Source: Arthrobacter jiangjiafuii (GTDB lineage Bacteria; Actinomycetota; Actinomycetes; Actinomycetales; Micrococcaceae). From it: DNA of 64,000 bases. Below are positions 55,137-64,000 of the stretch, one piece after another. The translations under genes were made by a program, and so were the position numbers. The notes below the pieces were generated by a model that did not search any database, was not told the DNA's origin, and saw only the letters and a list, made by a program, of their open reading frames with translations. The stretch spans positions 558,001 to 622,000 of the forward strand of contig NZ_CP076022.1 in assembly GCF_018622995.1 (NCBI RefSeq), written 5' to 3'. The stretch's first letter is position 1. Each line of letters starts with the position of its first letter.

Positions 55137-56105
55137 ATGCAGAACCCGCCGCGGATCACCGCCAACGGCAACCTGGGACCCATCAACGCCGCACTGGTAC
55201 CCCGGTATGCCGGCCCGGCGACCTACGCCCGGCTGCCCCGGCTGGATGAGGTGGCGCGTGCCGATGTGGCAGTGGTGGGCGTGCCCTTCGATACCGGCGT
55301 CTCGTTCCGTCCCGGCGCCCGTTTCGGCGCCAACCATGTCCGCGAGGCCTCCCGGCTGCTCCGGCCCTACAACCCGGCGCAGGACACCTCTCCGTTCGAG
55401 AACCTGCAGGTGGCCGACGCCGGCGACATGGCAGTGAACCCCTTCAACATCAACGAAGCCATCGAAACCATCCAGGCCAACGCACTGGACCTGACCGAGG
55501 GCGGCACCAAGCTGCTCACCCTCGGCGGGGACCACACCATCGCGCTGCCGCTGCTGCGTGCAGCCTCCGAGCGTGCCGGACAGCCCGTGGCCATGCTCCA
55601 CTTTGATGCCCACCTGGATACCTGGGACAGCTACTTCGGCGCCGAATACACCCACGGCACCCCGTTCCGTCGGGCGGTGGAGGAAGGGATCCTGGATACC
55701 GAGGCCATCTCCCACGTCGGTACCCGCGGTCCGCTCTACGGGAAGCGCGACCTGGAGGATGACCGGCGCTTCGGCTTCGGCATCGTCACCTCCTCGGATG
55801 TCTTCCGCCAGGGCGTGGACGAGGTGGTCGCGAAGCTCCGGGACCGGATCGGCAACCGGCCGCTGTATATCTCGGTCGATATCGACGTCCTGGACCCGGC
55901 CCACGCCCCCGGAACCGGCACCCCCGAGGCCGGCGGCATGACCAGCCGCGAACTGCTGGAAATCCTGCGCGGCATGCGGGGCCTGAACCTGGTGGGGGCC
56001 GACGTCGTCGAGGTCGCCCCGGCCTACGACCACGCGGACATTACCGCCGTCGCCGCCTCCCACGTCGCCTACGATCTCATCACCCTGATGGGGTTGGGGG
56101 AGTGA
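55137..56105 (+). CDS. speB: Agmatinase/ureohydrolase family protein
   Basis: This 322-residue manganese enzyme hydrolyses agmatine or a related guanidino compound to urea and an amine. All metal ligands are visible: His133 (GGDHTIALP), Asp157/His159/Asp161 ([10 protein letters not shown]) and Asp248/Asp250 ([19 protein letters not shown]). The substrate might instead be guanidinobutyrate or guanidinopropionate, which family members also use; motifs do not decide. Its stop overlaps the next start by four bases, so the downstream ThDP enzyme is co-translated. Confidence 0.9.
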
Positions 56106-57865
56106 GCGTCCCCGTGGAGCAGGACGGGCATGCCGCCGGAACGCCGGTACACAATGTCCGGGATGAGGAAACGGTTACGGCGGTCATGCCCGAGGCCGGA
56201 AGCGCCGTGCGCAACGGCGGGGACCTGGTGGTTGAAACGCTGTCCGCCCTCGGTGCCACCACTGTCTTCGGCATCCCCGGGCAGCATGCCCTCGGCCTCT
56301 TTGATGCCCTGACCCGCTCGGACCTGCGGTTTGTGTCCTCCCGGGTGGAAAACAACTCGGCTTTTGCCGCCGACGGCTTCTCCCGCGCCACCGGCCAGGT
56401 GGGCGTGCTCTTCCTCTCCACCGGTCCCGGCGCGCTCACCGCCCTCTCCGGGCTGCAGGAGGCCTATGCCACGGGCGTGCCGATGGTGGTGGTTGCCAGC
56501 CAGATCCCGATCGAGGGGCTCGGCGCACGCCGCCGCGGCATGCTGCACCAGCTTGATGACCAGAAGGCTTCGGCGGCGAACGTCACCAAGAGCCAGCGGC
56601 TGATCCAGCATGCCTCCGGTATTCCGTCCGCGATCCAGGACGCCTGGACCGAGGCCATCTCATCCCCCATGGGGCCGGTCTGGCTGGAAATACCGCAGAA
56701 TGTCCTGCTGAATCCGGTCATGGTCCCAGCGGTCGAAGATGCGCTGGCCGAGCCGTTCGACAATCCGCCCCGTACCGAGCTGGTGAAGGAAGCCGTCCGC
56801 TGGCTCTCCGCCGCCAAGCGGCCGGCCATTATTGCCGGCGGCGGCACCCGCCGCGGCCGCGGCGAGGCCGATCTGCTGGCCCTGGCCGAAAAGCTGCGCG
56901 CTCCAGTGATCTGCACGCCCGGCGGCAACGGTGCCTTCCCCTGGAACCACGAGCTCTCCCTGCAGGCCTGGATCGAGGACCGGTACACCACCGAGGTGCT
57001 CGAGGACGCCGATGTGCTGCTGGTGATCGGATCCTCGCTCGGTGAGGTCACCTCCAATTACTTCACCCTGGCGCCGCGCGGAAAGATCATCCAGATCGAC
57101 GCCGAGCCGCGGGTGCTCGAATCCAACCAGCCGGCCCTGGGCATCCGCGCCGATGCCGGGCAGGCGTTGTCCGCCCTGGACGCTGCGCTGGGGCAGGCCC
57201 TGGCTGACGCCGTGCGTGAAGGTTCCCCCCGCCAGCCTTCGGACTGGCACGGGCAGGCTCCGGAGCAGGTCGTCGCGCAGACGCTGCAGAAGGTCTCGGC
57301 GCGGCTGGACAGCCAGGACCTGGACATGGAGCGGCAGTTCATGGCCGATATCCGCGCTGCAGTCCCCGCGGGCATGCAGACGTACTGGGACATGACCATT
57401 TCCGCCTACTGGGCCTGGAGCTGCTGGGATGCAAAATCCGGGCAGTTCCATTCCGCCCAGGGCGCCGGCGGCCTTGGCTACGGCTATCCCGGCGCCATTG
57501 GCGGGGCAGTGGGCCTGGGGGAGCGGGTACTGGCGGTTTCCGGCGACGGATCAGCCATGTACTCCATCGCCGAACTGGCCACCGCCCGCCAGCATGACCT
57601 TCCGGTCACCTGGCTGATTGTCGACGACGGCGGTTACGGCATCCTCCGCGAATACATGGTGGAGGCCTTCGGCAAGGCCACTGCCACCGAGCTCGCCGGA
57701 CCGGATTTCGTGAAGCTGGCCGAGTCCTTCGGCGTTCCGGCGCGCCGCACTGCGCCCGACGGCGTGCGGCAGGCCTTGGTGGAATCCCTGGCGGCCGAGG
57801 GTCCCAACGTGGTTGTGGTCGAGGCCCGGATCGGCCTGTTCGCGCCGACCCATCTGGCACCCTGA
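56102..57865 (+). CDS. Thiamine diphosphate-dependent enzyme (acetolactate synthase-like)
   Basis: This 587-residue protein has the three ThDP-enzyme domains: pyrimidine-binding (catalytic Glu83 in [15 protein letters not shown]), central ([21 protein letters not shown]) and pyrophosphate-binding ([35 protein letters not shown]). The motif begins GDGS and ends DDGGYG rather than the usual N-x-x-Y-G. It is probably cytosolic and acts on a 2-oxo acid such as one from guanidino amino acid breakdown. GTG 56102 overlaps the agmatinase stop by four bases, strong evidence of a shared pathway. Reaction is not established. Confidence 0.88.
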
Positions 57866-58130: not shown

Positions 58131-58171
58131 TTGACTGAGGCAAATAAGAGTCTTATTGTTGCCTGAGGCAA
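58131..58171. promoter_or_regulatory. MarR operator region: two repeats flanking a palindrome
   Basis: TTGACTGAGGCAA (58131-58143) and TTGCCTGAGGCAA (58159-58171) differ at one base and are 28 bases apart. Between them AATAAGAGTCTTATT (58143-58157) is a palindrome with seven-base arms. The cluster lies just upstream of the MarR start and likely binds it for autoregulation. Confidence 0.75.
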
Positions 58172-58200
58172 ACAACCAACCGGTTTCAGACAGGTGTTCC

Positions 58201-58695
58201 GTGGCAGTAAACCAGCAGACCGCTGAAGAATTGATCGACCTCGTATTCCGGCTGCAGCGGGAGCTGCGCTGCGTCGCCCAGCGCAGCAGCGACCCGCGCG
58301 GGCCGGGCACGGCGCTGCAGGCAGTCATGCGCATGATCGGCGAAGAGACCGAGCTGCGCGCTACCGAACTGGCAGCCAAGCTGGGCATCGGCGCAGCCGG
58401 ACTGAGCCGGCACATCTCTGAGCTGGTCGAGCTCGGTTACGTCCTGCGCCGGCCCCATCCCGATGACGGCCGCGCCTACCTGATCAGTCTCACTCCGGCC
58501 GGAGCCCAGGCCGTTGCAGAAGAAATGCAGCGCCGCTCCACGTTGCTGAAGCAGATGCTGGGGGACTGGACCGAGGACGAAGCCGCCGCCGCCAGCCACT
58601 CCCTGGGCAAGCTCACCGAAACGCTGTACCACTCAATCCGCGCTATGAAGCCGGGCACCACTCAGATGCCCATCCCGGCAGGAGACCATAACTAA
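58201..58695 (+). CDS. MarR-family regulator of an efflux operon
   Basis: This 164-residue regulator has the winged-helix core ETELRATELAAKLGIGAAGLSRHISELVELGYVLRRPHPDDGRAYLISLT with a conserved D-x-R wing. GTG 58201 is chosen because the alternative TTG 58156 lies inside the candidate operator and adds non-family residues. An AGG lies about seven bases upstream. Its TAA is immediately followed by the GTG of a DHA2 transporter, so it probably represses its own operon until an inducer binds. Confidence 0.9.
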   Translation: MAVNQQTAEELIDLVFRLQRELRCVAQRSSDPRGPGTALQAVMRMIGEETELRATELAAKLGIGAAGLSRHISELVELGYVLRRPHPDDGRAYLISLTPAGAQAVAEEMQRRSTLLKQMLGDWTEDEAAAASHSLGKLTETLYHSIRAMKPGTTQMPIPAGDHN

Positions 58696-60468
58696 GTGAC
58701 AGAACTTCAACGGGCTAACAGCCCAAAGACCTCCGGAAAAAAGACGGTCGCCCGCCGGAACGGCAAGCCGGCCCGCCCGGATCACATCCCCGGCGAGATG
58801 AGCCACCGCCAGATCCTGCAGGCCCTGACCGGCCTGCTCGCCGCGCTGTTCACGGCCATGCTGAGCACCACCATCGTGGCCAACGCGCTGCCCACCATCA
58901 TGGCCGACCTGCACGGCACGCAGACCGACTTCGCCTGGGTGGTGACCGCGGCACTGTTGGCCAACGCAGTCTCCACTCCCATTTGGGGCAAGCTCGCAGA
59001 CCTGTTCAGCAAGAAACTCCTGGTCCAGCTGAGCATCATCGTCTTCGTGCTCGGCTCCGTGCTGGCCGGCCTGGCGGAGAACATGCCGGTGCTGCTCACC
59101 GCACGCGTGATCCAGGGCCTGGGCATGGGCGGACTGACCGCCCTGGTCCAGGCCGTCATCGGCTCCATCATTCCGCCGCGTGAACGCGGCCGGTACTCCG
59201 GCTACATGGGTGCGGTGATGGCCGTGGCCACCGCCGGCGGCCCGCTGCTGGGCGGCTTCATCGTGGACAGCCCGCTGGGCTGGCGCTGGACCTTCTTCCT
59301 CTGCGTGCCCCTGGCCGTGGTGGCGCTGTTCCTGCTCCAGGTCACCCTGCGCCTGCCGCACACCCGCCGCAAGGTCAGCATCGACTGGCTGGGCTCGATC
59401 CTGCTCACCGCCGGTGTTTCCCTGCTCCTGATCTGGGTCTCCTTTGCCGGCAAGGACGGCTACTACGACTGGCTGTCCTGGCAGACCGCCGCCATGGTCG
59501 GCACCAGCCTTGTCCTGCTGGCGCTGCTCGTCTTCGTGGAATCCAAAGTCAGCGAGCCCATCATTCCGCTGAAGATCATCCGCGAACGCACCACCGCCCT
59601 CTCCATCGTGGCCTCGGTAGCCGTTGGCATCGCCATGTTCGGGTCCACCACCTTCCTGGGCCAGTACTTCCAGATCGCCCGCGGATTCAGCCCCACCGAG
59701 GCCGGACTGCTGATGCTCCCGATGATCGCCGGGAACCTGATGGGATCCGTCGGCTCGGGACAGCTGATCAGCCGGTTCGGCAAATGGAAGCGGTTCCTCA
59801 TCGCCGGCACCATCATGGTGATAGCCGGCACCGGCCTGGCGGGCAGCATGGACCACGAAACGGACATGCTCCTGGTCAGCCTCTACATCTTCGTGCTCGG
59901 CCTGGGCATGGGCCTGCTCATGCAGAACCTCGTCCTGGCGGTCCAGAACACGGTGAAGGTTTCCCAGGTCGGCTCGGCCAGCGCCTCGATCGCCTTCTTC
60001 CGCACCGTTGGCGGTGCCGTGGGCGTGTCGGTCCTGGGTGCCGTGATGTCCAGTTCCGTCAGCAGCCGTGCCGCCGACGGCCTGCGGGCCGCCAACATTC
60101 CGGTGTCCGACGGCGGAGCCGGGGATTCGCTGGACATCGGCAGCCTGCCGCCCGCCATCCAGGGAATTTTCCGGGCGGCCTACGGCGACGCGACGGCCAC
60201 GATCTTCCAGATCTCGGCCGTGGTCTCCGTAGTAGCGCTGATCGCGGTGCTCTTTATCAAGGAGCAGGTGCTGCGCCGCACGCTCGATATCCAGCCCACG
60301 CCCCCAGCCCCAACCCCGGCGCAACCGGGCATGACCGGCGCATCCGAGCTGATGCACTCCGGCGCCGGGCCGACCGTTCCGGGCGAATCCCGGTCCGCGC
60401 CGGAGTCCGCAGGCAATGCCGGACCCACGAGCTCCGGCCGCACAGCCGACGGCGGGCCAACCGCCTAG
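58696..60468 (+). CDS. DHA2-family (EmrB/QacA) multidrug MFS transporter
   Basis: This 590-residue permease with about 14 helices begins with a basic N-terminus, then QILQALTGLLAALFTAMLSTTIVANALPTIMADL, the motif-C region RVIQGLGMGGLTALVQAVIGSIIPPRERGRYSG and IDWLGSILLTAGVSLLLIWVSF. The C-terminal ~65 residues are Pro/Ala/Ser-rich. It exports drugs or toxic metabolites by proton antiport. It starts at GTG 58696 directly after the MarR stop, so they form one operon. The substrate is unknown. Confidence 0.93.
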   Translation: MTELQRANSPKTSGKKTVARRNGKPARPDHIPGEMSHRQILQALTGLLAALFTAMLSTTIVANALPTIMADLHGTQTDFAWVVTAALLANAVSTPIWGKLADLFSKKLLVQLSIIVFVLGSVLAGLAENMPVLLTARVIQGLGMGGLTALVQAVIGSIIPPRERGRYSGYMGAVMAVATAGGPLLGGFIVDSPLGWRWTFFLCVPLAVVALFLLQVTLRLPHTRRKVSIDWLGSILLTAGVSLLLIWVSFAGKDGYYDWLSWQTAAMVGTSLVLLALLVFVESKVSEPIIPLKIIRERTTALSIVASVAVGIAMFGSTTFLGQYFQIARGFSPTEAGLLMLPMIAGNLMGSVGSGQLISRFGKWKRFLIAGTIMVIAGTGLAGSMDHETDMLLVSLYIFVLGLGMGLLMQNLVLAVQNTVKVSQVGSASASIAFFRTVGGAVGVSVLGAVMSSSVSSRAADGLRAANIPVSDGGAGDSLDIGSLPPAIQGIFRAAYGDATATIFQISAVVSVVALIAVLFIKEQVLRRTLDIQPTPPAPTPAQPGMTGASELMHSGAGPTVPGESRSAPESAGNAGPTSSGRTADGGPTA

Positions 60469-60522
60469 TTCCTCACCGGCTAGTTCCGGCTCCGGCCAAC
60501 CGGCTAGCTCCTGCACCGGCAG

Positions 60523-61740
60523 TCACTGCATGGTGAAGCGGCGCGCCACCAGATGCCCTGCGGCAGGGAGTCGGAACACCCGGGCCAGACCGGCGTTGCG
60601 CGCCGCCAGCACCGGTCCGGGCAGCGGCCGCCCCAGCGCCATGTTCAGCTGCGCCTGCCGGGACGCGACGACGGCGGCCCGGCGCCGGTCGCGGCCGAAG
60701 CCCGCCAAGAGCGCACCGACGTCGTTCCCGCGCAGCGACGCGGAGATGATCGGAGCCAGTGCAGCGGCATCGAGCCAGCCAAGGTTCATCCCCTGCCCGC
60801 CGATCGGACTCACCTCATGGGCGGCGTCGCCAATCAGCACCGTCCGCCCGTGCACGAGCTTCCGGGCCAGCCCGGTCCGCACCGAAAAAGCGCTGAGCAT
60901 GGTGTTGGATTCGGGGTCGGGCCGGATACCGGTGCGGCTGGCGACGATCCGGGACAGGTCCGCGGCCGTGGCCCCGGCTTCCAGGGTGTCGGTATGCGCC
61001 ACCCAGCGCCGGATGCCTCTCGGGAGGGGGAAGGACTCCACGATCCCGCCGGATTCCAGATAGAGCACTGCCACGGGACCGTCTCCGGTCTGATCCGCGA
61101 AGTCGCCCATGAGATAGGTATCGGGGAGGGTGCGGGTCCGGCAGGGCACGCCCAGCGCCGCCCGGAGTCCGGAGCGGGCGCCGTCCGCCGCCACGAGGAT
61201 GCGGGCGGACACCGAAAAGTCCTGCGATTCGGGACCTGCCGTGCCACGGGTGCCGTCGGTGCCCGGAAGGAAGCTGCCGCGCAGGCGAACCCGGCCGGCG
61301 TCGTCGTGCACGCCCGTAACCTGGGCCCCGCGGACCAGGGCGTGCGGATCCAGGGCCCGCAGCCGGGTCTCGAGCAGCGCCTCGGTCCGTAGCTGCGGCA
61401 GCGTCAGCACGTAGGGGAAACGGGCGGAGGCAGCGGCGAAGTCGACGGCGGCCACCGGAGAGCCGCCGCTGCGGGCCTCGCCGCGGCGGATCTGCACCCC
61501 TTCACGGCTCATTGTCCCGGCCACTCCCGCGGCGGCAAGCGCTTCCAGTGCCGGCGGATGGATTCCGATCGCCCGGGAATGCTCCGACCGCGTCAGCCGC
61601 TGTTCCAAGACCTGCACGCTGATCCCGGCCTGCGCCAGCAGGACCGCCAGATAGATTCCCACCGGCCCGCCCCCCACAACCGCTACGTCGGTGGCAGGCC
61701 GGGGGACGACGGCGGTGCCGGCCTGGGGCTGCGCCGTCAC
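60523..61740 (-). CDS. FAD-dependent hydroxylase of the type III PKS operon (SrsC-like)
   Basis: This flavoprotein monooxygenase has the Rossmann motif VAVVGGGPVGIYLAVLL, the DG motif VAADGARSGLRAAL and the GD motif VLIGDAAHEVSPIGGQGMNLGWLDAAALAP, as in UbiH-type hydroxylases. GTG 61740 is preferred (405 residues) because it overlaps the methyltransferase TGA as GTGA; the frame opens further to GTG 61806 within the preceding gene. It is third in a polyketide operon and probably hydroxylates the aromatic polyketide, as SrsC hydroxylates alkylresorcinol in Streptomyces. Substrate inferred. Confidence 0.88.
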   Translation of the reverse strand: MTAQPQAGTAVVPRPATDVAVVGGGPVGIYLAVLLAQAGISVQVLEQRLTRSEHSRAIGIHPPALEALAAAGVAGTMSREGVQIRRGEARSGGSPVAAVDFAAASARFPYVLTLPQLRTEALLETRLRALDPHALVRGAQVTGVHDDAGRVRLRGSFLPGTDGTRGTAGPESQDFSVSARILVAADGARSGLRAALGVPCRTRTLPDTYLMGDFADQTGDGPVAVLYLESGGIVESFPLPRGIRRWVAHTDTLEAGATAADLSRIVASRTGIRPDPESNTMLSAFSVRTGLARKLVHGRTVLIGDAAHEVSPIGGQGMNLGWLDAAALAPIISASLRGNDVGALLAGFGRDRRRAAVVASRQAQLNMALGRPLPGPVLAARNAGLARVFRLPAAGHLVARRFTMQ

Positions 61741-62510
61741 GGCGGTGTCCCGTCGGGGACGTGCAGCAGCAGGTTCTGCCACGGCCGGTGCCGTAGACAC
61801 TGCCACCCCGGCGGTGCCGCCGCTGCCAGTTCATCAGCCGTGTAGCTGCGCCGGATCGAGGTCAGGCCGTCCTGCCGGATGTAGCTGCCCGGGAAAAACG
61901 GCAGGGTACCGGCGGAAAACAGGCCATATCCCCACCGGCTGCGCTCAATATCGCTGTGCAGGCTCAGCCGGCCCGCCAACTGCTCGGAGTCCGCCAGCAG
62001 GGACCGGAACTGAGCATCGTCCAGGTGGTGCAGGACGTGGTTGGAGATCACCACGTCGTAGGTGCGGCCTTCGGTTACCAGCTCGCTGCTGAAAGCTCGG
62101 CGGAATTCCAGGCCGGGTACTGCCGGGCGCGAGGAGGCAAACGCGTGCGCCCGGTCATCCGGATCGATCCCCGTGACCTCGAGCCGAACACCGTCCCGGC
62201 GGGCCCAACGGGCCAGCATCCGGGGGACATCGCCGCCGCCGGAGCCGATGTCCAGCAGTGTGTTGATCCGTTCAGGCTCTAAGCGGGGACGCAGATAGCG
62301 GACGTAGTTGCGGCGCCATCCGGAGACCACCGTATTGATGAGCCAAAACTGCGCGTAGGTGCGGCGCAACTTTGCCGGGTCGCAGTCCGGCCGGTCCATT
62401 TCCTCCACGGCGTCCGGGTCGCGCTCCGCCAGGGACCGCAGCACGGGTGGGGTCAGCCGCCGGGCCAGCGGGCCCTGGCGCAGGGTGCCCACGGAGGAGC
62501 CGGTACTCAC
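61737..62510 (-). CDS. Class I methyltransferase of the type III PKS operon (SrsB-like)
   Basis: This 257-residue SAM-dependent methyltransferase has motif I LLDIGSGGGDVPRMLARWA, an acidic follow-on VTGIDPDDRA and the post-core motif VVISNHVLHHLDDAQFRSLLADSEQLAGRLSLHSDIER. The N-terminal ~60 residues are helical and basic. It overlaps the PKS stop by four bases (GTGA) and the hydroxylase start by four bases, so the three are translationally coupled. It probably O- or C-methylates the polyketide. No metal or SET motif suggests another role. Confidence 0.9.
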   Translation of the reverse strand: MSTGSSVGTLRQGPLARRLTPPVLRSLAERDPDAVEEMDRPDCDPAKLRRTYAQFWLINTVVSGWRRNYVRYLRPRLEPERINTLLDIGSGGGDVPRMLARWARRDGVRLEVTGIDPDDRAHAFASSRPAVPGLEFRRAFSSELVTEGRTYDVVISNHVLHHLDDAQFRSLLADSEQLAGRLSLHSDIERSRWGYGLFSAGTLPFFPGSYIRQDGLTSIRRSYTADELAAAAPPGWQCLRHRPWQNLLLHVPDGTPP

Positions 62511-63748
62511 ACGCCGGCCGGAGCGGGAGCCGGCTGGCGTCCAGCGTCCGCCTGCTCACCCGAGGCCTGCGCCGCATCGGCCTGGTTCGCCGCACCGGCT
62601 GCCGGGACGGCGTCAACCGGCCCGCCGACGCGGGTAAACAAGCCGGTCTCCACCGTCAGGCCGGGCCCAAATGCCATGGAGCAGATACGTTCGTTGCCGC
62701 CGCGGAACGGCTGGTCCAGGATGTGCTTGAGCACAAACAGCACCGTGGCGCTGGACATGTTGCCCCAGTTCCGCAGGGTGTCGCGGGCCGGAACCAGCTG
62801 CTCGGGTGTCAGCTCCAGCTTGGCCTCGACTTTGTCCAGGATGCTGCGCCCGCCCGGATGGATGGCCCAGTGCTCGATGTCGCGGTACGGCTGGCTGGCG
62901 ACGGCGGGCTCGTTGGCGAGCAACGGTTCCAGGGCGCCCACAATGTGCTCGTCGATGATGTGGGGAACGTAGGTCCCCAGCACCATTTCGAACCCCTCGT
63001 CGCCAATATTCCAGGCCATTGATTCCTCGCCAACCGGGGTCAGGATGGTTTCGAAATGATCCAGCTGGATGCCGGGGGAGTTGCCCGGCAGGTCTCGTGC
63101 GGTGATGACGGCCGCAGCGGCGCCGTCGGCGAACAGCGAGGAACCCATGATGGTGTCCGGGTTGTTGGAGGTGCGCACGTGCAGGGAGCACAGTTCGGCG
63201 CTGACCACGAGTACCACTGCCTCCGGGTCGGCCTCGCAGAAGGACTTCGCAGCCCGCATCGCCGGGAACGCCGCGTAACAGCCCATGAAGCCAAGGTGGA
63301 ACCGCTGCACCGATGGGTTCAGGCCGAGGGCGCGGACCACTTTGTAGTCCGGTCCGGGATTGAAAAAACCGGTGCAGGACACCGTGATCACGTGCGTGAT
63401 GTCGGAGGGGCTGATTCCCTCGCAGGCATCAACCGCCTTTTGGGCTGATTCGATAAAGAGTTTGGTGGCTTCCACGGCGAAGATGTCGTTGCGGACCTTG
63501 GTACTGGGGCTGAGCAGGTTGCCGGATGTGGGGTCGAAGAATAGGGGGTTGTCGGTCCGGTAGGAGAGGGAGAGCTCTGCCAGGGCAGTTCGCCGGGTAT
63601 CAATGGCTGCCGAGTCAAAACAAGTCCGGACGAGCCGTTGTCCCAGCCTGGTGAGGCCGGGTTGGGCGGAGAAGACCTCGCGTGCCTCGGTTTGTACCAG
63701 CACGGTAGGCGGGACAGAGATTTCCAGGGATCTGAGGGTAACCGTCAT
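62507..63748 (-). CDS. Type III polyketide synthase
   Basis: This 413-residue chalcone-synthase-fold enzyme extends an acyl-CoA starter with malonyl-CoA and cyclises it. The catalytic triad is complete: Cys157 (FMGCYAAF), His297 (WAIHPGGRSILD) and Asn330 (GNMSSATVLF). The last ~35 residues are Ala/Gln/Pro-rich and non-conserved. Bacterial relatives with this context make alkylresorcinols or alkylpyrones from long acyl-CoA. ATG 63748 overlaps the upstream CtaG-like TGA as ATGA. The product type is inferred from the methyltransferase and hydroxylase neighbours. Confidence 0.95.
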   Translation of the reverse strand: MTVTLRSLEISVPPTVLVQTEAREVFSAQPGLTRLGQRLVRTCFDSAAIDTRRTALAELSLSYRTDNPLFFDPTSGNLLSPSTKVRNDIFAVEATKLFIESAQKAVDACEGISPSDITHVITVSCTGFFNPGPDYKVVRALGLNPSVQRFHLGFMGCYAAFPAMRAAKSFCEADPEAVVLVVSAELCSLHVRTSNNPDTIMGSSLFADGAAAAVITARDLPGNSPGIQLDHFETILTPVGEESMAWNIGDEGFEMVLGTYVPHIIDEHIVGALEPLLANEPAVASQPYRDIEHWAIHPGGRSILDKVEAKLELTPEQLVPARDTLRNWGNMSSATVLFVLKHILDQPFRGGNERICSMAFGPGLTVETGLFTRVGGPVDAVPAAGAANQADAAQASGEQADAGRQPAPAPAGV

Positions 63749-64000
63749 GGTTCATTCTTAGGGGAATGTTCTGCCGGGCACAACGGTGGTGGTTGGAGGA
63801 TGCCAGACGGTCTGCCGGACCGCACGCGGGGCCGGGTCGAGGAATACCACCGCTGGCAAAGCAGGAACACCAGCACCAGCTCCACTGCGCCGCCCGCGTA
63901 GTACAGCACCATGGCTCCGGCCTCGCCCGAGGACGCCGGCACGCCGTGCGGCGGGGCGGCGTAGAGCGACTTGGCCAGGATGTTGTGGGCCGCGCCCGCC
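63745..64000 (-). CDS. CtaG-like membrane protein, 5' end beyond the window
   Basis: The frame is open to the window edge; 84 residues of the C-terminus are visible. It reads HNILAKSLYAAPPHG, then EAGAMVLYYAGGAVELVLVFLLCQRWY, then a basic/Pro-rich tail. This resembles the end of caa3-type cytochrome oxidase assembly proteins (CtaG/PF09678): an amphipathic loop, a final helix and a basic tail. The stop overlaps the PKS start by four bases (ATGA), so it is co-transcribed. The identification rests on a short segment and is tentative. Confidence 0.5.
   Translation of the reverse strand, partial: AGAAHNILAKSLYAAPPHGVPASSGEAGAMVLYYAGGAVELVLVFLLCQRWYSSTRPRVRSGRPSGILQPPPLCPAEHSPKNEP

Follow-up and report, generated by a model that had tools for sequence, protein, structure and literature searches.

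A CtaG-family gene whose stop codon overlaps the start codon of a type III polyketide synthase (PKS) gene raises the question of whether the two genes work together or have merely come into contact. The case considered here lies at the end of a 64,000-nucleotide stretch of the genome of Arthrobacter jiangjiafuii (the window, C1:558001-622000 of a single-contig genome of 3.59 Mb), in which the 3' part of the CtaG gene, the PKS gene, a methyltransferase gene and a flavoprotein hydroxylase gene follow one another on the minus strand with overlaps of four bases. A preliminary description of the sequence had proposed that the CtaG gene could link the lipid made by the other three gene products to respiratory membranes or to quinone chemistry.

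The reading favoured by the present analysis, with a probability of roughly 0.8, is that the PKS, methyltransferase and hydroxylase genes are an ordinary quinone-lipid trio with a promoter of its own, that the CtaG gene belongs to a separate gene pair, and that the two were brought into contact by gene loss, without a functional link. Since the contact most likely exists because intervening genes were lost, it says little about function. The parts of this reading that we infer are the product chemistry, the promoter role and leaderless start, the deletion event and the absence of a functional link.

Distance between CtaG and the PKS across the genus and beyond

A total of 148 genomes, the strain itself and its relatives, were screened for the PKS, and some match was obtained in 106: 29 in the genus Arthrobacter in the GTDB sense and 77 in other genomes, part of which gave weak matches only. 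The genus set thus comprises 29 species or genomes, the strain itself included, all with a strong PKS match (E 5.7e-212 or better). PKS neighbourhoods were examined in all 29 genus genomes and in 32 of the 77 others, and to these were added the best 80 of 575 confirmed stretches, 9 of which duplicate genus loci. Once identical PKS starts had been dropped, 131 distinct PKS loci remained, 29 from the genus and 102 from outside it.

The CtaG stop lies 77-145 nucleotides upstream of the PKS in 10 relatives of the strain, which with the strain itself gives 11 of 29 genus loci in which no gene separates the two, and it lies 1.3-5.3 kb upstream in the other 18, where genes intervene. The preliminary description had named an adjacency confined to this strain as grounds for rejecting its proposal; such confinement is seen for the overlap, which is found in 1 of 29 genomes, and not for adjacency in the wider sense (11/29) or for loose proximity (29/29). 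The intervening genes, which were named by eye from their sequences without a family search, are drawn in varying subsets from a RecQ helicase (+), an mmsB-like dehydrogenase (-), an MHS-type transporter (-), an mmsA-like dehydrogenase (-) and a LysR regulator (+). Opposite-strand genes separate CtaG from the PKS in 13 of the 29 loci, and in five of the 29 RecQ is the sole intervening gene, which at one of the five, L041, is split in two.

Outside the genus, no CtaG gene was detected at any of the 102 distinct PKS loci with a profile built from 58 CtaG sequences, more than 6 kb of upstream sequence being covered in 90 of them; at seven of these loci a Tex gene lies upstream as it does in the genus, with no CtaG between. 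Within the fetched genus stretches a flanking acetolactate-synthase-like gene occurs in 24 of 29, to which the strain's own copy at window positions 56102-57865 is to be added, and Tex occurs in 22 of 29, the misses being due at least in part to stretches cut short; only 8 of 29 have a short YlxP-like gene over the threshold. No link between CtaG and a type III PKS appears in the titles and abstract openings of the open-licence PubMed Central papers that match both.

Uninterrupted co-directional adjacency of the kind expected of a cluster member is therefore not conserved. On the basis of its distribution, its separation from the PKS by other genes and the promoter element that the PKS has of its own, CtaG was rejected as an operon partner, and the proposed link to respiratory membranes or quinone chemistry finds no support.

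The usual partner of CtaG

The sequence beyond the end of the window contains the whole CtaG gene, which matches PF09678 at 161.6 bits (161.3 in a second search; cut-off 27.7) over profile positions 1-236 of 237, and the family assignment that the preliminary description had made from the truncated gene is thereby confirmed; the part inside the window, taken alone, scores 15.9 bits, under the cut-off. Beyond the window, CtaG is preceded at a distance of two bases by a same-strand gene of the DUF2243 family (PF10002, 162.5 bits), a family of which no mention was found in open-licence PubMed Central papers.

The association between these two genes was surveyed at all 34 DUF2243 places that are away from a PKS or on another contig (7 in the genus, 27 elsewhere). 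DUF2243 has a same-strand CtaG behind it, no more than about 250 nucleotides away, in 27 of the 34 regions, two of which (L185 and L207) rest on split or weak CtaG matches. Seven regions have no following CtaG (L183, L191, L200, L206, L208, L203 and L187); of these, L208 is a broken copy, L203 ends at a contig edge, and L187 has a same-strand CtaG that is upstream instead. With its two-base spacing the strain has a tight pair, as do the 27 regions, and its pair differs from those others in abutting the PKS operon. On the favoured reading the upstream CtaG is a member of a separate DUF2243-CtaG pair, and its usual partner is DUF2243. At the PKS, 21 of the 29 genus loci have DUF2243 together with CtaG; the remaining eight form a clade (L048, L050, L054 and L056-L060) in which the PKS-side CtaG has no DUF2243 and sits on a longer branch.

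The genome encodes a second CtaG-domain protein (G000:C1:3244176-3244907, within a 707-residue open frame, 277.2 bits), whose domain is 25% identical to that of the PKS-side CtaG, and the roles of CtaG may therefore be split between the two genes.

A predicted promoter before the PKS

The -35 and -10 elements predicted directly before the PKS start codon (Table 1) are present in every genus locus, and a TTGT and ANAAT pair spaced 24-26 nucleotides apart occurs in 73 of the 102 non-genus loci. The paired motif was found in none of 262 control blocks taken further upstream (two partly overlapping blocks for each of the 131 loci). This element, predicted to be the PKS promoter, is placed so that the transcript would begin at or near the A of the ATG, and the mRNA would therefore probably be leaderless. 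Leaderless mRNAs are frequent in M. tuberculosis, most of whose primary starts have a TANNNT motif centred 7-12 bp ahead of them (PMC3898074, in part). In the strain itself the element (63754-63783) lies within the CtaG frame and codes for part of the last CtaG residues.

The same region contains a near dyad, with CATTGT paired with ACAATG in 30 of 131 loci and with AGAATG in 58, and the layout of CATTGT, about 21 nucleotides, and ACAATG or AGAATG at the start codon is nearly invariant in the genus and in many other Micrococcaceae (L035-L174). A strict pattern modelled on the PKS sites, CATTGT-N20-21-ASAATGR, was run on 19 genomes (13 from the genus, including the strain itself, and 6 others) and matched 11 of them, each time at the PKS start, with a sole match elsewhere at G004:C1:1401021; a control in which the pattern was read backwards matched one genome (G001). 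The strain's own genome and one other of the genus (G010), whose half-sites read CGTTGT and GATTGT, gave no match. No wider regulon for the dyad was found with the strict pattern in the 19 genomes. The dyad is possibly the operator of some regulator, and as a PKS-specific promoter dyad it is possibly new.

Origin of the contact

In a tree built from the PKS, methyltransferase, hydroxylase and CtaG sequences, which are linked genes of the same locus, the sister group of the strain consists of seven species (support 0.96 for the seven and 1.0 for the whole group), all of which have genes or remnants of genes between CtaG and the PKS. Decay is visible in two of the seven, one with a transporter remnant (7%, L035) and the other with the split RecQ gene (L041). 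Fitch parsimony places non-adjacency at the root of the genus, with four changes (five losses if only losses are allowed), and also places the mmsB-like and MHS-type genes at the root. Homologues of the intervening genes occur at only 2 of the 102 non-genus loci, and the block itself is therefore also a genus-level feature. A search of the strain's genome for mmsB and RecQ gave no close orthologue of either (best identities 47% and 38%). Compared with 27 of its 28 relatives, the strain has a CtaG tail extended by about 10 to 20 residues; the exception, L041, carries a read-through tail of another kind, itself longer.

The contact is thus most simply seen, from these comparisons, as a lineage-specific junction produced by loss of the intervening block. 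The DUF2243-CtaG pair would already have been near the PKS in the ancestor of the genus; in the lineage of the strain the mmsB-like gene and the MHS-type transporter would then have been lost, as parsimony suggests, after which the CtaG frame would run on through the PKS promoter and end in the PKS start codon, giving the ATGA overlap. The trio would continue to be transcribed from its own promoter directly before the PKS start codon, probably as a leaderless mRNA.

The operon and its probable product

The family assignments of the three operon genes, all above their cut-offs (Table 1), bear out those of the preliminary description, as do the overlaps that it listed: that of the PKS and methyltransferase genes is GTGA at 62510-62507, and that of the methyltransferase and hydroxylase genes is GTGA at 61740-61737, provided that the hydroxylase starts at GTG 61740, which is a choice, the frame being open up to an alternative GTG start at 61806. 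The methyltransferase also matches NCBIfam PRK06202 (325 bits, cut-off 243), a model named merely "hypothetical protein", and every match of the hydroxylase to UbiH-type and aromatic hydroxylase models is under the model's own cut-off.

Table 1. Features of the CtaG-PKS junction and the lipid operon (window positions)
Feature	Position	Strand	Details
3' part of CtaG-family gene	63745..64000	-	whole gene G000:C1:621745-622575, 276 residues
Predicted -35 (TTGTGC) of PKS promoter	63778..63783	-	inside CtaG frame; TTGTG at -35 to -31 from ATG in 29/29 genus loci
Predicted -10 (AAGAAT) of PKS promoter	63754..63759	-	5 nucleotides before ATG; ANAAT at -10 to -6 in 29/29 genus loci
ATGA overlap of CtaG stop and PKS start	63745..63748	-	1/29 genus genomes (the strain itself only)
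Type III PKS	62507..63748	-	ATG start; PF00195 102.8 bits, PF02797 91.9 bits (cut-offs 27)
S-adenosylmethionine methyltransferase	61737..62510	-	second gene, SrsB/PkqB-like position; GTG start; PF13489/PF13649 41 bits (cut-off 27)
Flavin adenine dinucleotide-dependent hydroxylase	60523..61740	-	third gene, SrsC/PkqC-like position; PF01494 166.1 bits (cut-off 22)

In its gene order and protein families the trio is one known operon type, of the srs/pkq order, which recurs widely in the family. Among the 32 non-genus loci fetched, tblastn located the methyltransferase and the hydroxylase in 30 each, and in a crude clustering of neighbouring frames at the same 32 loci no cluster beyond the PKS, methyltransferase and hydroxylase positions reached more than 3 of 20 genera. 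Overlapping or closely spaced genes are frequent in the trio: a possible start codon at -4 is found at the PKS-methyltransferase junction in 20 of 29 genus loci and 30 of 102 others, and one at -4 or at -11 to -8 at the methyltransferase-hydroxylase junction in 27 of 29 and 83 of 102 respectively.

The gene order and the family assignments, which resemble those of srsA-srsB-srsC of Streptomyces griseus, make it likely that the product is a methylated, hydroxylated alkylresorcinol or quinone. The PKS would make an alkylresorcinol from a fatty acyl starter, which the methyltransferase would methylate and the hydroxylase would oxidize to a hydroquinone or quinone, that is, a polyketide quinone or phenolic lipid. 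The S. griseus methyltransferase and hydroxylase genes are srsB and srsC, and C125, H297 and N330 form the putative catalytic triad of the Arthrobacter PKS. A tryptophan, W294, stands three residues before the putative catalytic histidine in all 12 of the commonest motif variants (122 of 131 loci) and may correspond to Trp281 of ArsB, a mark of resorcinol formers according to PMC9927152 (in part). Matches to solved structures comprise 104 distinct sequences, and the 60 listed are mainly plant chalcone and stilbene synthases, which are uninformative about the product.

The srs operon unites the same three gene types, as passages of PMC9927152 and PMC10896814 describe, and the likeness to it, which the preliminary description had pointed out, is one of gene order and families; it differs in that the upstream CtaG gene was found in this survey only in the genus Arthrobacter. 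The same order of PKS, methyltransferase and oxidoreductase is given for pkqA-pkqC of Mycobacterium smegmatis and a cluster of Streptomyces sp. MNU77 (PMC9927152, in part). The pkq enzymes convert alkylresorcinol to an alkyl benzoquinone which, for clusters of this type, has been proposed as an alternative electron carrier (same source). According to the excerpted text of PMC11078813, T3PKS clusters recognized by antiSMASH are common to the Micrococcaceae strains studied there, and these are probably of the same type as the Arthrobacter trio; in that excerpt the alkylresorcinol match concerns one strain, whose family is not given, and CtaG, gene overlaps and the promoter are not treated. An open-licence PubMed Central paper, as far as its available portion goes, assigns an alkylresorcinol match to Leifsonia, not to Arthrobacter.

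Convergent with the operon, window positions 58156-60468 (+) contain a MarR-family regulator gene and a DHA2-type MFS exporter gene (TIGR00711, 241 bits, cut-off 230). At 21 of the 29 genus loci the MFS gene is kept next to the operon, and an antiporter-like gene, so named by eye, replaces it in one clade. A 627-residue open frame antisense to the MFS gene (58633-60516, -) is probably a shadow frame of high-GC DNA.

Weighing the explanations

Several observations weigh against loss without a functional link. None of the 29 genus genomes lacks a same-strand CtaG gene in the roughly 6 kb upstream of the PKS, and the parsimony counts given above imply more than one origin of adjacency. In the clade of eight in which the PKS-side CtaG has no DUF2243, seven genomes also carry a DUF2243-CtaG pair elsewhere (L175-L181), and the solo CtaG still stands by the PKS, as though it had been retained there. 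The strict promoter test fails at 29 of the 102 non-genus loci, although on visual inspection about 15 of these have a variant form, for instance TAGTAATG or TATGAATG, in the corresponding position, the others being different. At two positions, -36 (A to G) and -4 (G to A), the element of the strain itself does not follow the genus consensus; both changes are also known from loci outside the genus. The element could therefore be weakened, in which case read-through from CtaG could be relevant. As to the deletion, RecQ is reconstructed as absent from the root (four Fitch changes, as against seven losses) and may therefore be an insertion in some lineages that was never present in that of the strain.

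The opposite reading would have CtaG, with a role in assembling the oxidase or in handling copper, expressed together with the lipid pathway so that a polyketide quinone feeds the terminal oxidase. The constant proximity in the genus and the 11 direct adjacencies speak for such coupling, as do reports of polyketide quinones as respiratory carriers in related actinobacteria (PMC9927152, in part); it is nevertheless very unlikely, given the opposite-strand genes in between, the PKS promoter element present throughout the genus, the absence of CtaG from the non-genus loci and its usual pairing with DUF2243, and given that flanks without an obvious link, the acetolactate-synthase-like gene and Tex, are kept as well. 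A more elaborate proposal, that the element combines a leaderless promoter with a dyad operator for a dedicated regulator of the lipid operon across the Micrococcaceae, and that repeated closure of the CtaG gap reflects selection tying a respiratory assembly gene to the operon, is regarded as highly improbable. The product of the trio might instead be an alkylpyrone, or a phenol other than a quinone, with a use in the cell envelope, for example, since some bacterial type III PKSs do make pyrones (PMC10896814, in part), but the order of PKS, methyltransferase and hydroxylase is that of the quinone-forming srs and pkq operons (PMC9927152, in part), which leaves this alternative unlikely while giving it some weight. 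That the ATGA overlap is an artefact of assembly or sequencing, as its occurrence in a single genus genome might suggest, is scarcely credible in a single-contig genome in which neither reading frame is disrupted and both the CtaG core and the PKS start agree with those of relatives.

Significance

Gene loss can leave a neat translational overlap behind as a by-product, and caution is needed in deducing function from such an overlap in one genome. What the locus offers for the biology of the Micrococcaceae is a candidate promoter element belonging to a lipid operon that is widespread among them and whose product could serve as an alternative quinone in respiration.

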